A stretch of 64,000 nt of DNA, taken from contig CALUFC010000002.1 of assembly GCA_944319885.1 (NCBI GenBank), positions 1 to 64,000 of the forward strand. Direction: 5' to 3'. The notes under the pieces were generated by a model that had not been told where the DNA came from, made no database searches, and saw only the letters and a program-made list of their open reading frames with translations. Below are positions 1-42,751 of this stretch, one piece after another. Source of the stretch: an uncultured Coriobacteriaceae bacterium (GTDB taxonomy: Bacteria > Actinomycetota > Coriobacteriia > Coriobacteriales > Coriobacteriaceae). Each line of letters begins with the position of its first letter. Position 1 is the stretch's first letter. Made by a program: the position numbers and the translations under genes.

Positions 1-315
1 TCCTCGCCACGTTAAACAGGGGTACTGTCAAAATGAATTGACAAGAATTCTTCTTACGAGCCCCAGCTGGCTCTTGCCGCTTAATTTATAGCAGGCACGC
101 CAATCCCGGGTCTTCCCCGCCCCGGGTGCGGTGTCATTTCAGGGGAATGCTCCTGCGCACGTAATCGGTATGGCGCGGGCTAAGATCGAACCGGTTGGGA
201 CGCTGCGAGCGTGTCGCTGCGCGCAACGCGCCCGAGATCAAATCAGCGACTGAGCCTGGAGATGCCGATCAGGGGGCTTTCGTGGACCGGAGTTCGATTC
301 TCCGCGGCTCCACCA
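1..315 (+). ncRNA. ssrA: tmRNA (3' part; 5' end outside window)
   Basis: Rescues stalled ribosomes by adding a degradation tag. The in-frame stretch ending at the TAA at 82-84 reads DKNSSYEPQLALAA if translation resumes at the GAC at 40-42. The LALAA end matches known tmRNA tags; the resume codon is inferred, limited by an in-frame TGA at 34-36. The 3' end has a T arm (stem 288-292 with 300-304, loop TTCGATT) and a 3' CCA at 313-315. The 5' acceptor half lies before the window. Confidence 0.9.
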
Positions 316-14958: not shown

Positions 14959-15954
14959 TTAGTCGTCGTAGCCCGAGTTGCCGTCATCGTAGCCCGAGTT
15001 GCCGTCATCGTAGCCCGAGTTGCCGTCGTCATACCCGGAGTTGCCATCGTCGTAGCCGCTGTCATGGCTGCTCGAGGGAGCTGGGGCGGGCGCGGCAGTA
15101 GACGCTGCAGCGACGGCCGGTGCGGGCGCCGCAGCGGTCACATCGTCGTCGCCATAGTCGCTCACGCCGTCGTCCTCGGCGTCATCGTAGTTGGTTGCAC
15201 CGTCATCGTAGCCCGAGTTGCCGTCGTCCCACGAATCGCGATCATCCCAATCGTCGTTGTGCTCGTAATCCGCCTCGAGCACCTTGCCAGTGCGGGCATC
15301 GACCTCGAAGTCATACTCGATGCCGTTCGCCATAAACTCGAGTTCGTACACGCCATCATCCAGCTCGTAGTCGTGCTCGTGGAACGTCACGCCCGACGGA
15401 TCGAGTCCCAGCTGCCCCAGTACCAGCTGCTTGGCGGCATCGATGCCAATGAGCCCCGCGTCATCGAGATCATCCTCCCCAAGCGCGTAAGCGCTCGACC
15501 CCAACCCGCGATCGCTCGCCGCGTGCTGCACACTCGTCGCCATATCATCCATAAAGTGAGCAGAGGGCACATCGGAGCCGTCTGCGATCTTGAGCACGAT
15601 ATTGCGCTCGCGACCGCCGATGCCGTTTTCGAAATATCCGTCGTCATCGATCTCGCCAACAAGCTCGCCGGCAACTGTGGTTGCCGGACGGCCCACCGCG
15701 TCGTCGTAGTCGGCAAGCACGAGCGCGCCGTCTTCGTTGGCACCGGCAACCGACACCACGTCGCCCTGCGCGTCGTAGGCAATCTCGATCTCGGGATTCA
15801 CGCTCAGAAGCACGCTGCCGATGGGCGTTGCATCGCCGCTGCCTCCAACGGGTGACGCGGAAACCCCTCCCCCACAGCCGCTGAGCCCGGCGATCAGGGC
15901 GACGCACGCGCCCATACCTGCAATGCGTGAGATAGTCCTCATGGTGGCCTTCAT
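14959..15954 (-). CDS. Lipoprotein with RsgI-like and PepSY-like parts and a repeated SGYDD tail, 331 aa
   Basis: Residues 1-27 form a lipoprotein signal with lipobox LSGC, so the protein is probably anchored outside the membrane. Residues about 40-75 (SVLLSVNPEIEIAYDAQGDVV) resemble the extracytoplasmic start of RsgI proteins. A PepSY-like unit follows at about 190-250 (GIDAAKQLVLGQLG, then a strand ending VDARTGKVLEADY). The tail is Asp/Tyr-rich with five SGYDD repeats and an Ala/Pro stretch. The ATG at 15954 follows AAGGAGG. It lies downstream of sigI-rsgI, has its own shared promoter-like element, and probably belongs to that signalling system. Confidence 0.8.
   Translation of the reverse strand: MKATMRTISRIAGMGACVALIAGLSGCGGGVSASPVGGSGDATPIGSVLLSVNPEIEIAYDAQGDVVSVAGANEDGALVLADYDDAVGRPATTVAGELVGEIDDDGYFENGIGGRERNIVLKIADGSDVPSAHFMDDMATSVQHAASDRGLGSSAYALGEDDLDDAGLIGIDAAKQLVLGQLGLDPSGVTFHEHDYELDDGVYELEFMANGIEYDFEVDARTGKVLEADYEHNDDWDDRDSWDDGNSGYDDGATNYDDAEDDGVSDYGDDDVTAAAPAPAVAAASTAAPAPAPSSSHDSGYDDGNSGYDDGNSGYDDGNSGYDDGNSGYDD
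14962..15045. repeat. 21-bp tandem repeat (four full units) encoding GNSGYDD
   Basis: Units at 14962-14982, 14983-15003, 15004-15024 and 15025-15045 are nearly identical, with a degenerate fifth at 15046-15066 and a further partial copy near 15204-15224. The unit length keeps the frame, so copy number can vary without breaking the lipoprotein. Confidence 0.95.
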
Positions 15955-16005
15955 GGTTCCTCCTTCAGTCACCGGATGGTTCCGGTTGTTCCATCTGACA
16001 GTGAT

Positions 16006-16042
16006 AGGTTGCGGAGGGAGCACGGGCAAACCGGGGTCGTGC
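16006..16042 (-). promoter_or_regulatory. Candidate SigI-type promoter of the lipoprotein gene
   Basis: On the minus strand this 37-nt element matches the sigI leader element at 25 of 37 positions, with shared blocks CGACCCCG, then GTGC 8 nt later, then CT-n-CGCA-n-CC. The ACCCC core resembles the -35 type described for SigI factors. It ends 52 nt before the lipoprotein ATG. Confidence 0.5.
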
Positions 16043-16120
16043 GGAACTTTTTTTCGATTGTTTTCAAGCAACGTCATCGAGCACGCTGCGGCAGGTCGCA
16101 ACGATGAACGCAGCGCTCCG

Positions 16121-16879
16121 TTAGTCGTCGTAGTCGCTGTAGCCCGAGTCTCCGTACCCGCTATCATCGCTGGGCGCCGGCGCGGGACTTGGAGCGGGCA
16201 CGGCGGGTGCCGCCGGCTCGGGCTCGGGGGTTGGACCGGGCTCGGGTACCGCGACGATCACGGCGTCGGGCAGCTCATCTGCCGCCGCCTGCACCGCCTC
16301 GATATCCGCCTTCCGTGCAACCATAATGCCCTCGCCGACATGCTCAGAGAGATCCTCGATCAAGCGCTCTTCTATCTCGGCGCGCCACGGCTCGTCATCT
16401 GAGGCGACATCGAGCGCCACCGCGCCGCCCGCTGCGAGGTCACCCGCATCCTCAGCGCGGTCGGTCAGCTCGAAGACCACCGTCTCGGCGTCCTTACCGT
16501 ACGACCAATAGTCCTCAATCAGGGCATCGCCGTCGGCGTTCTCACCGGTAAGGCCCACCACGCGATCGAACCGATTGACCTCGATGGCAACGGACGGATT
16601 AATCTCAAGATGCACGGTGCCGCGCGGCGTCTGCCAGAACCACGCGCCGCCGATGATCGCAACGCAGAGGCACGCGGCGGCAGCCAGCCAGCACGCCTTG
16701 CGTGACGAGCCGCGGCGCCGGACGGCATCGGAGGCATCGTCTACGGGCGTGTCGGCGAGGTAGATGTCCTCGCGCATCTCGCCCACGGTGTACCCCAAGT
16801 TGGGCACGCGCATCACGCGCCCCGCTTCGTCGAGCACGACGGCATGGCTCAGCATGCACTCGAGCACCAGGTATCTCAT
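16121..16879 (-). CDS. RsgI-like membrane anti-sigma factor, 252 aa
   Basis: Residues 1-50 match the RsgI N-terminal anti-sigma domain (MRYLVLECMLSHAVVLDEAGRVMRV). One membrane helix lies at about 62-82, and the outer part opens with VHLEINPSVAIEVNRFDRVVGLTGEN, the RsgI periplasmic core. The end is Pro/Ala-rich and closes with an Asp/Ser/Tyr tail (SGYGDSGYSDYDD) like that of the neighbouring lipoprotein. The ATG overlaps the sigI stop (ATGA). In Firmicutes, RsgI holds SigI inactive until an outside signal arrives; the same is inferred here. Confidence 0.88.
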   Translation of the reverse strand: MRYLVLECMLSHAVVLDEAGRVMRVPNLGYTVGEMREDIYLADTPVDDASDAVRRRGSSRKACWLAAAACLCVAIIGGAWFWQTPRGTVHLEINPSVAIEVNRFDRVVGLTGENADGDALIEDYWSYGKDAETVVFELTDRAEDAGDLAAGGAVALDVASDDEPWRAEIEERLIEDLSEHVGEGIMVARKADIEAVQAAADELPDAVIVAVPEPGPTPEPEPAAPAVPAPSPAPAPSDDSGYGDSGYSDYDD

Positions 16880-17631
16880 GCCGCATCGCCCCCCGCCATC
16901 TTGCGCGGGGCACCGACCACCTTATAGAGGTGGCCGCGGATGATATCGAACCCGTTGGTATAGATAAGCAGCATCGCCACGAGGTAGCGACGATGGCGCT
17001 CGAGCGTTTTGCGTTCGACCCCCGCGCCCTTGGCGAGCGCGGCGAGCGGCAGCTTGCCCGTTTTCTCGAGCTGCTCGATGAGCTCGACATGCTCACGCGC
17101 GTAGCGGATGGCTTGGCGGCACACTTCAAGTGTGCGATCCTGCTTGGGGCAGTTATCGGCTACGTCGCCAAACGAGACGCCGAAGGTCTCGAGCAGAGCT
17201 GCGAGCTCTGCGATCTCCTTGCGCGTCGCCTCCCGCACCATACCCTCGTCCATATCGGGGTGCTCGCCGGCAAGCTGCTCCGCAAGGGGACGGCGCTCAT
17301 CGCCGTCGGCGTCTTCGGTCGCGGCGTCGAGCGATACAACCGTGAGATGACGCGCCTCGCGGCGGCGGTAGTCGATGAGGCGATTCTTGATGAAGCGTGC
17401 AGCGAGCGGCAGGAAGGCGCCACGCCGTGCGTCGTATGCCATTATCGCCTCATGAAACGCGAACATAGCGATTCCCAGCTCGTCATCAGACCCCTCAATG
17501 GGAGACCGCCCCATGAACTTCGCCGTCTCGGCTTTAATGAACGGCAGGTAATCGCGCACCAGGTCATCAGCCCGATGCGTGTCCCTTTGCGCCGCCCGCA
17601 CGCGCGCGGCAATGTCGTTCCGCAAGCCCAT
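16876..17631 (-). CDS. SigI-family RNA polymerase sigma factor, 251 aa
   Basis: The N-terminal region carries sigma-70 region 2 in the SigI form: LVRDYLPFIKAETAKFMGR, then DDELGIAMFAFHEAIMAYDARRGAFLPLAARFIKNRLIDYRRRE. The C-terminal part (about 185-240) is the DNA-binding unit. GGGGAG precedes the ATG. It is first in a sigI-rsgI operon, and its leader holds the element shared with the lipoprotein gene, suggesting autoregulation. SigI factors are best known from Bacillus (heat) and clostridia (polysaccharide sensing); its role here is unknown. Confidence 0.9.
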   Translation of the reverse strand: MGLRNDIAARVRAAQRDTHRADDLVRDYLPFIKAETAKFMGRSPIEGSDDELGIAMFAFHEAIMAYDARRGAFLPLAARFIKNRLIDYRRREARHLTVVSLDAATEDADGDERRPLAEQLAGEHPDMDEGMVREATRKEIAELAALLETFGVSFGDVADNCPKQDRTLEVCRQAIRYAREHVELIEQLEKTGKLPLAALAKGAGVERKTLERHRRYLVAMLLIYTNGFDIIRGHLYKVVGAPRKMAGGDAA

Positions 17632-17650: not shown

Positions 17651-17687
17651 AGGATGCGCAGCGCGCACCCGCGTTTCGGGGTCGCAC
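17651..17687 (-). promoter_or_regulatory. Candidate autoregulated SigI promoter of sigI-rsgI
   Basis: This is the second copy of the 37-nt element with the CGACCCCG core, ending 20 nt before the sigI ATG. The shared spacing in two leaders within one locus argues for a common activator. No TTGACA-type -35 is evident. Confidence 0.5.
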
Positions 17688-42540: not shown

Positions 42541-42751
42541 GGGAATCCTCCTTTAATCTGTGCCGCCCCGTGCCGGTACGGGCGGCGTGCGTACAGACCG
42601 TCGGCCCGTGTAGACGGCGCGGGCCGGCTTGCCGCGTTACGCGCAGCGGTTACTTAGGATAGCGGAAACGGCTGCATGACACGGCGACAGCGCGCTCGCG
42701 CAGGCAGTCTTTACAAAGCGGAAGCAAACAGGCGCGCCCGCACGCGGCGCA

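Follow-up and report, generated by a model that had tools for sequence, protein, structure and literature searches.

A SigI-RsgI locus in Coriobacteriaceae with a lipoprotein that shares the outer domain of RsgI and a SigI-type promoter

SigI/RsgI is among the few bacterial systems that have been argued to sense force on the cell wall. RsgI cuts itself, and the two halves are kept joined by a sheet until a wall signal separates them; intramembrane and cytosolic proteases then release SigI. To our knowledge, the one role known so far for a self-cut SEAL domain is in RsgI, where it triggers transmembrane signalling, and we know of no SEAL-PepSY lipoprotein in the SigI regulon of Bacillus subtilis. 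PepSY domains occur in propeptides and in PepSY lipoproteins. B. subtilis SigI has a role in wall stress and drives mreBH and lytE (PMC7478892). SigI is reported to be widespread among Bacilli and Clostridia (PMC10575876), and the periplasmic domain of Clostridium thermocellum RsgI is self-cleaved (PMC12203970). Here we describe a sigI-rsgI locus of an uncultured Coriobacteriaceae bacterium (contig CALUFC010000002.1, of which the first 64,000 nt were analysed; hereafter the window). The two genes are followed by a lipoprotein gene whose product carries the outer domain of RsgI and which has a SigI-type promoter of its own. On balance, we consider it probable that this cassette is a self-contained SigI/RsgI envelope-stress switch with the lipoprotein as its dedicated output.

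The cassette resembles the B. subtilis system in the order sigI-rsgI, in the promoter layout (ACCCC..AA-15N-CGNA) and in an RsgI with a transmembrane segment and a SEAL domain. B. subtilis SigI targets mreBH and lytE, whereas the lipoprotein gene is the only conserved target that we found for the cassette. The paralogous systems of C. thermocellum are alike in sigma factor sequence (match to SigI6, 8i24), in promoter layout and in a periplasmic domain that is self-cleaved there and predicted to be so here. Unlike their RsgI proteins, which mostly carry carbohydrate-binding or enzyme domains and go with cellulosome regulons, the cassette RsgI has a disordered tail; the cassette differs further in a Gln for His171 of SigI, a −10 element reading CGCA and a T-tract in the target promoter. 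PepSY lipoproteins (CD1622, 4exr) and the PepSY domain of an M4 propeptide (9vy3) resemble only the C-terminal half of the lipoprotein core, and neither an RsgI_M domain nor a SigI promoter has been reported for them. Among openly accessible papers, we found no combination of RsgI with PepSY and no SigI in Collinsella. The parts are known; their combination does not appear in the literature searched and is, within that limit, a variant new for Actinomycetota.

A sequence-only reading of this locus had proposed a SigI-family sigma factor, an RsgI-type anti-sigma protein and a downstream lipoprotein, and both the identities and the coordinates were borne out (Table 1). SigI combines Sigma70 region 2 (Pfam Sigma70_r2, E 3.5e-7) with a SigI-type C-terminal domain. 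The NCBIfam SigI models matched with E 6e-48 to 5e-26, all below their curated cut-offs (163 vs 306 bits, 143 vs 185), and SigI6 (8i24) matched residues 11–233 (E 2.3e-20). The rsgI gene lies directly after sigI on the minus strand, with a 4 bp overlap of the reading frames, and encodes a single predicted transmembrane segment and an RsgI_M domain (PF23750, Pfam E 6e-17) containing Asn-Pro. The RsgI_N profile (PF12791) had no match in the bacterium's own genome, the window RsgI included; it matched 15 of 17 aligned orthologues (E up to 0.05, best 3e-6), and the N-terminus aligns throughout.

The lipoprotein contains an RsgI_M domain (E 1.1e-11) and a PepSY domain (E 2.6e-7) in Pfam, which agrees with the RsgI-like and PepSY-like unit that had been read from the sequence. 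Its outer start, SVLLSVNPEIEIAYDAQG, had been likened to the outer core of RsgI; it forms the first hairpin of the RsgI_M domain, in alignment with the solved B. subtilis RsgI (8t9n). The lipoprotein core, modelled with AlphaFold from 46 orthologues, had a pLDDT of 86 and a pTM of 0.80. The best PDB match of the model in Foldseek was again 8t9n (E 5e-6, probability 1.00), with the periplasmic domains of C. thermocellum RsgI2 and RsgI6 ranking lower in the match list, and profile searches with the lipoprotein gave 8t9n (E 8e-9) and the PepSY structure 9vy3 (E 6e-9). Both the fold and the scissile position of the domain are as in RsgI. In three solved structures of RsgI periplasmic domains (8hep, 8her and 8u9o), chain B begins at the Pro that is aligned to the Asn-Pro of RsgI, and the chain B start of 8hep also aligns with the Asn-Pro of the lipoprotein, which places the known self-cleavage site, by alignment, at Asn94-Pro95 of RsgI and Asn53-Pro54 of the lipoprotein. 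The lipoprotein SEAL domain is a candidate for autoproteolysis.

The motif around this bond is conserved in both proteins, as INP in 75/75 RsgI of the cassette and VNPE in 81/81 lipoproteins. The conservation of VNPE is partly due to selection, because two peptides were used for the search and VNPEIE was part of one; the motif is also kept in the orthologues and relatives from a plain protein search. SGY-type tails, claimed earlier for both proteins, are present on both in the window, that of the lipoprotein being encoded by a 21-bp repeat. A C-terminal Asp-Asp was seen in 68 of 75 RsgI and 57 of 63 complete lipoproteins, also on SGY-type tails that are not dominated by Asp. The lipoprotein reading frame was called mechanically from position 16167, and its likely true start is the ATG at 15954 (MKATMRTISRIAGMGACVALIAGLSGC), with a ribosome site (GAAGGAGG) immediately upstream.

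Published SigI promoters read ACCCCC--AA-15N-CGAA in Bacillales and AAA-13/14N-CGWA in C. thermocellum (PMC4711584). When lined up by eye in a single register, the stretches upstream of sigI and of the lipoprotein gene in the window are identical at 26 of 36 positions, and share the motif ACCCC-G-(A/T)3-N15-CGCA with SigI geometry. The sigI promoter, ACCCC-G-AAA-N15-CG(C/T)A, has the layout published for autoregulated SigI promoters (C-rich −35, A-tract, 13–15 bp, CGWA), but departs from it in the CGCA of Coriobacteriia, and the lipoprotein copy departs from it in its T-tract. We counted the pattern CCCC[AG][AGT][AT][AT]-N15/16-CG[CT]A in 75 loci, using dinucleotide shuffles as control. It was found before sigI in 68 and before the lipoprotein gene in 67 of the loci, and before both in 60, where the shuffles predict 0.2 (sigI) and 0.42 (lipoprotein). 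Only 9 other matches occurred in 1.7 Mb of strand bases, and several loci missed by the strict pattern differ by one base. The sigI promoter mostly has an A-tract and the lipoprotein promoter mostly a T-tract; the −12 base is T (CGTA) in Bacillota and C (CGCA) in nearly all Coriobacteriia. A coupling of this base to SigI residues was considered and dropped, as the base change is confounded with phylum.

In nine relative genomes, the stricter form CGACCCCRDWW-N15-CGCA was found only at the sigI and lipoprotein promoters. The matches outside the locus in the own genome all lie inside genes, and looser forms gave few scattered extra matches, at about the level of a reversed-pattern control. Therefore, the conserved regulon that we found is a minimal one, consisting of sigI-rsgI and the lipoprotein gene, and the latter would be transcribed by SigI. 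The sequence-only reading had named, as a ground for rejecting the module, a lack of effect of the sigma factor on lipoprotein expression; at the sequence level, the SigI-type promoter common to both genes speaks against such a lack. At loci where the arrangement is broken, the promoter stands before a lipoprotein gene that lacks an adjoining sigI (L079); one lipoprotein gene without the promoter lies in a genome that gave no SigI match (L069), and another without the promoter has sigI-rsgI elsewhere in its genome (L132). Four tandem SigI-type promoters, ∼105–115 bp apart and three of them nearly identical, occupy the rsgI-lipoprotein gap of one Oscillospiraceae locus (L096), and two are seen in several other Oscillospiraceae.

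PMC10575876 reports that Arg98, Asp101 and Arg104 of SigI6 and Arg108 of SigI1 read the −10 CG, with C-14 and G-13 contacted in SigI6, and that His171 of SigI6 is an essential minor-groove residue; activity is lost with Tyr, Phe, Asn, Ser or Ala in its place, and these five do not include Gln. In the alignment columns of the cassette SigI (SigI6 numbering), Arg98 is kept in 73/74 and Asp101 and Arg104 in 74/74. The cassette SigI is a distinct subgroup with altered DNA-binding residues, and its Gln at the His171 position together with the T-tract of the lipoprotein promoter suggests an altered mode of reading the −35 region.

Several points weigh against control of the lipoprotein gene by SigI as proposed. 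The position of His171 is Gln in 74/74 SigI of the cassette, the −10 element of Coriobacteriia is CGCA and not CGWA, and known SigI promoters have an A-tract where the lipoprotein promoter has a T-tract. One sigI promoter has lost a C (G003, CGACACCG). In the L079 genome, where the lipoprotein promoter is present, one diverged query recognised no sigI, only another sigma factor. The strict promoter pattern may also overlook weaker targets, and the expression and protein behaviour of the module are predicted from sequence. Because of the CGCA and the Gln, we infer recognition by SigI from the position and conservation of the promoters.

The proposed three-gene order is conserved in about 75 loci, far beyond chance. 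The best 80 of 112 loci from a search with the lipoprotein alone belong to Coriobacteriaceae, Atopobiaceae, Oscillospiraceae and Lachnospiraceae and, in a few cases, to other groups. In about 74 of the 80, sigI-rsgI lies directly upstream in the same order; three of the six exceptions are at contig ends. The sequence-only reading had made its proposal depend on co-occurrence, which is strict in the Coriobacteriia: of 198 genomes, each at least 90% complete, the cassette SigI is present in 20, all of which have two adjoining RsgI_M genes, and the other 178 have neither. In ten Bacillota carriers, the cassette SigI was the sole SigI found. Gut bacteria of two phyla carry the cassette, which brings animal-gut Actinomycetota into the range of SigI. 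In the SigI tree, the sequences sort by phylum and the 32 Actinomycetota rows group together (support 100/97). As each phylum is kept as one group, no recent transfer between the phyla is shown, and we rejected this explanation.

In the scheme that we favour, RsgI would keep SigI at the membrane, its SEAL domain would cut itself at Asn94-Pro95 with the halves staying together, and a wall signal, probably via the tail, would separate the halves and let intramembrane proteolysis release SigI; for the window RsgI, self-cleavage, release and wall sensing are expected by homology, as is recognition of the promoter by SigI. Through promoters of one kind, released SigI would transcribe more sigI-rsgI and, separately, the lipoprotein gene, and the lipoprotein, with its SEAL domain (Asn53-Pro54), PepSY domain and tail of the same type, would protect or tune the envelope from the outer face of the membrane. 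As it would be made after SigI is freed, the lipoprotein is most likely a regulated output of SigI rather than an upstream sensor. A bolder extension, which we put forward tentatively, is that a self-cut SEAL domain works here without a transmembrane helix, in a lipoprotein that can be shed or strained at the surface, and that this SigI subgroup is essentially dedicated to making a copy of its own sensor, a one-gene output.

An envelope-protecting effector would be our first choice for the lipoprotein, and its main rival is a feedback decoy: the SigI-induced lipoprotein would compete with RsgI for wall position, ligand or force, or pair with the RsgI ectodomain, and damp the signal at a sufficient level. 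All RsgI-lipoprotein pairs have the SEAL domain and Asn-Pro in common, the SigI-type promoter is what a feedback loop needs, and the two tails of one genome resemble each other, the SGY genus being the clearest case (cosine 0.72–0.79, vs 0.37 with the lipoproteins of other genomes). However, such likeness is also expected from common ancestry and base composition, and a decoy has no need of a PepSY domain, and we regard this role as rather unlikely. The sequence-only reading had suggested a sensing or modulating role of the lipoprotein towards RsgI. Of this, feedback on RsgI may apply; a constitutive upstream sensor is unlikely for a protein with a SigI-type promoter of its own. The same promoter, separate from that of sigI-rsgI, fits an output better than a co-sensor that would be the first to detect the signal and would then cause release by way of RsgI, and C. 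thermocellum RsgI is reported to signal without such a partner (PMC12203970). We therefore give the co-sensor little credence, despite the strict co-occurrence and the outer domain in common.

Two further explanations were weighed. In Clostridia, its tail could be a substrate or platform for a surface kinase pathway of neighbouring CotH, VTC and DUF4956 proteins, with only the lipoprotein kept in Coriobacteriia. Of 29 Bacillota loci with enough sequence, 18 encode CotH and 19 encode DUF4956 at most 4.5 kb downstream in the same orientation, but both are absent from the 29 Coriobacteriia loci, so this pathway cannot be the whole function; most tails also have few Ser or Tyr, and we consider it very unlikely. 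The counts hint at an output operon that is larger in Bacillota and cut down to the lipoprotein in Coriobacteriia. Least credible of all is an ordinary secreted lipoprotein that merely adjoins sigI-rsgI. These genomes do have RsgI_M relatives without sigI elsewhere, but the order is kept in two phyla, the promoter is conserved at both genes and co-occurrence is 20/20. As a switch with a near-single conserved output that itself bears the sensing domain, the cassette would offer a minimal system in which to study the function of the SEAL domain and that of the disordered tail, and its naturally altered SigI (Gln invariantly in place of His, with the CGCA/CGTA difference at −12) would be useful in studies of promoter recognition.

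Table 1. Features of the sigI-rsgI-lipoprotein locus, with positions in the window.
Feature	Position	Strand	Remarks
sigI, SigI-type sigma factor, 251 aa	16876..17631	−	Subgroup with CPKQDRT vs SigI6 TPKHRDS
rsgI, membrane anti-sigma factor, 252 aa	16121..16879	−	
RsgI domain order			Short N-terminal cytosolic domain, one transmembrane helix, RsgI_M/SEAL domain, Pro/Ala stretch, SGY tail
RsgI transmembrane helix (predicted), residues 63-82, CWLAAAACLCVAIIGGAWFW	16634..16693	−	Sequence reading; Ala-rich; alignment
RsgI_M/SEAL domain of RsgI	16286..16618	−	E 2.6e-17
RsgI Asn94-Pro95	16595..16600	−	Aligned with first residue of cleaved solved RsgI chains
RsgI disordered tail, Pro/Ala then SGY	16121..16273	−	
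Lipoprotein gene, 331 aa	14959..15954	−	Signal peptide and lipobox, RsgI_M/SEAL, PepSY, disordered repeat tail
Lipobox LSGC, Cys27 (residues 24-27)	15874..15885	−	Sequence reading; L24, G26, C27 invariant among orthologues
RsgI_M/SEAL domain of lipoprotein	15496..15813	−	E 1.6e-12
Lipoprotein Asn53-Pro54	15793..15798	−	Position equals RsgI self-cleavage site
PepSY domain of lipoprotein	15274..15369	−	Pfam E 2.6e-7; match to 9vy3
Lipoprotein disordered Asp/Gly/Ser/Tyr tail	14959..15270	−	
21-bp tandem repeat coding (DDGNSGY)n	14962..15057	−	4.6 copies, 89% matches
SigI-type promoter (putative) of sigI-rsgI, CGACCCCGAAACGCGGGTGCGCGCTGCGCA	17655..17684	−	
SigI-type promoter (putative) of lipoprotein gene, CGACCCCGGTTTGCCCGTGCTCCCTCCGCA	16010..16039	−	

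A third RsgI_M protein is encoded elsewhere in the own genome (contig C17, L034:6456-7376), with relatives at L044-L051, L053, L216, L217 and L220. It has a signal anchor or lipobox, a VNPE motif and a tail that mostly ends in SGYDD or similar; no PepSY match, adjoining sigI or SigI promoter was seen. Some proteins of this type have DTDYGPxxDGVTDY repeats, which are also found in cassette lipoproteins of Oscillospiraceae. A conserved inverted repeat, GGGCGACCGACTCC...GGGGAGCCGATC, lies in the leader upstream of this gene and of the relatives L044 and L046-L048, and the leaders had no Rfam match. A possible response-regulator box, CTTAC-N6-CTTAC, noticed by eye before sigI and the third gene, was rejected, as the 4 genome-wide matches (1 in the control) are in unrelated places.

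We also considered single RsgI_M genes of Eggerthellaceae as SigI systems lacking the lipoprotein. Those that were read follow frames resembling extracytoplasmic function (ECF) sigma factors, in genomes without a SigI match, and this candidate was discarded. In Eggerthellaceae and relatives (L209-L215, L218, L221), RsgI_M is found in anti-sigma-like proteins behind such ECF-like frames; they share RsgI_M with VNPS but have neither SigI nor the PepSY lipoprotein, and the self-cleaving domain seems to be joined to another sigma class there. Genes for CotH kinase and DUF4956, sometimes with VTC polyphosphate polymerase, follow the lipoprotein gene at L081, L091, L094, L096, L100, L103 and other Bacillota loci. 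At L076, where no sigI was found, genes for the lipoprotein, a response regulator, a histidine kinase, VTC, DUF4956 and Cthe_2159 stand in a row. The Rfam scan of the window had no match at the sigI-rsgI-lipoprotein locus and gave only an aspS cis-regulatory RNA at 42549-42628 (minus strand) and a tmRNA at 1-315 (plus strand), which is cut by the window edge.

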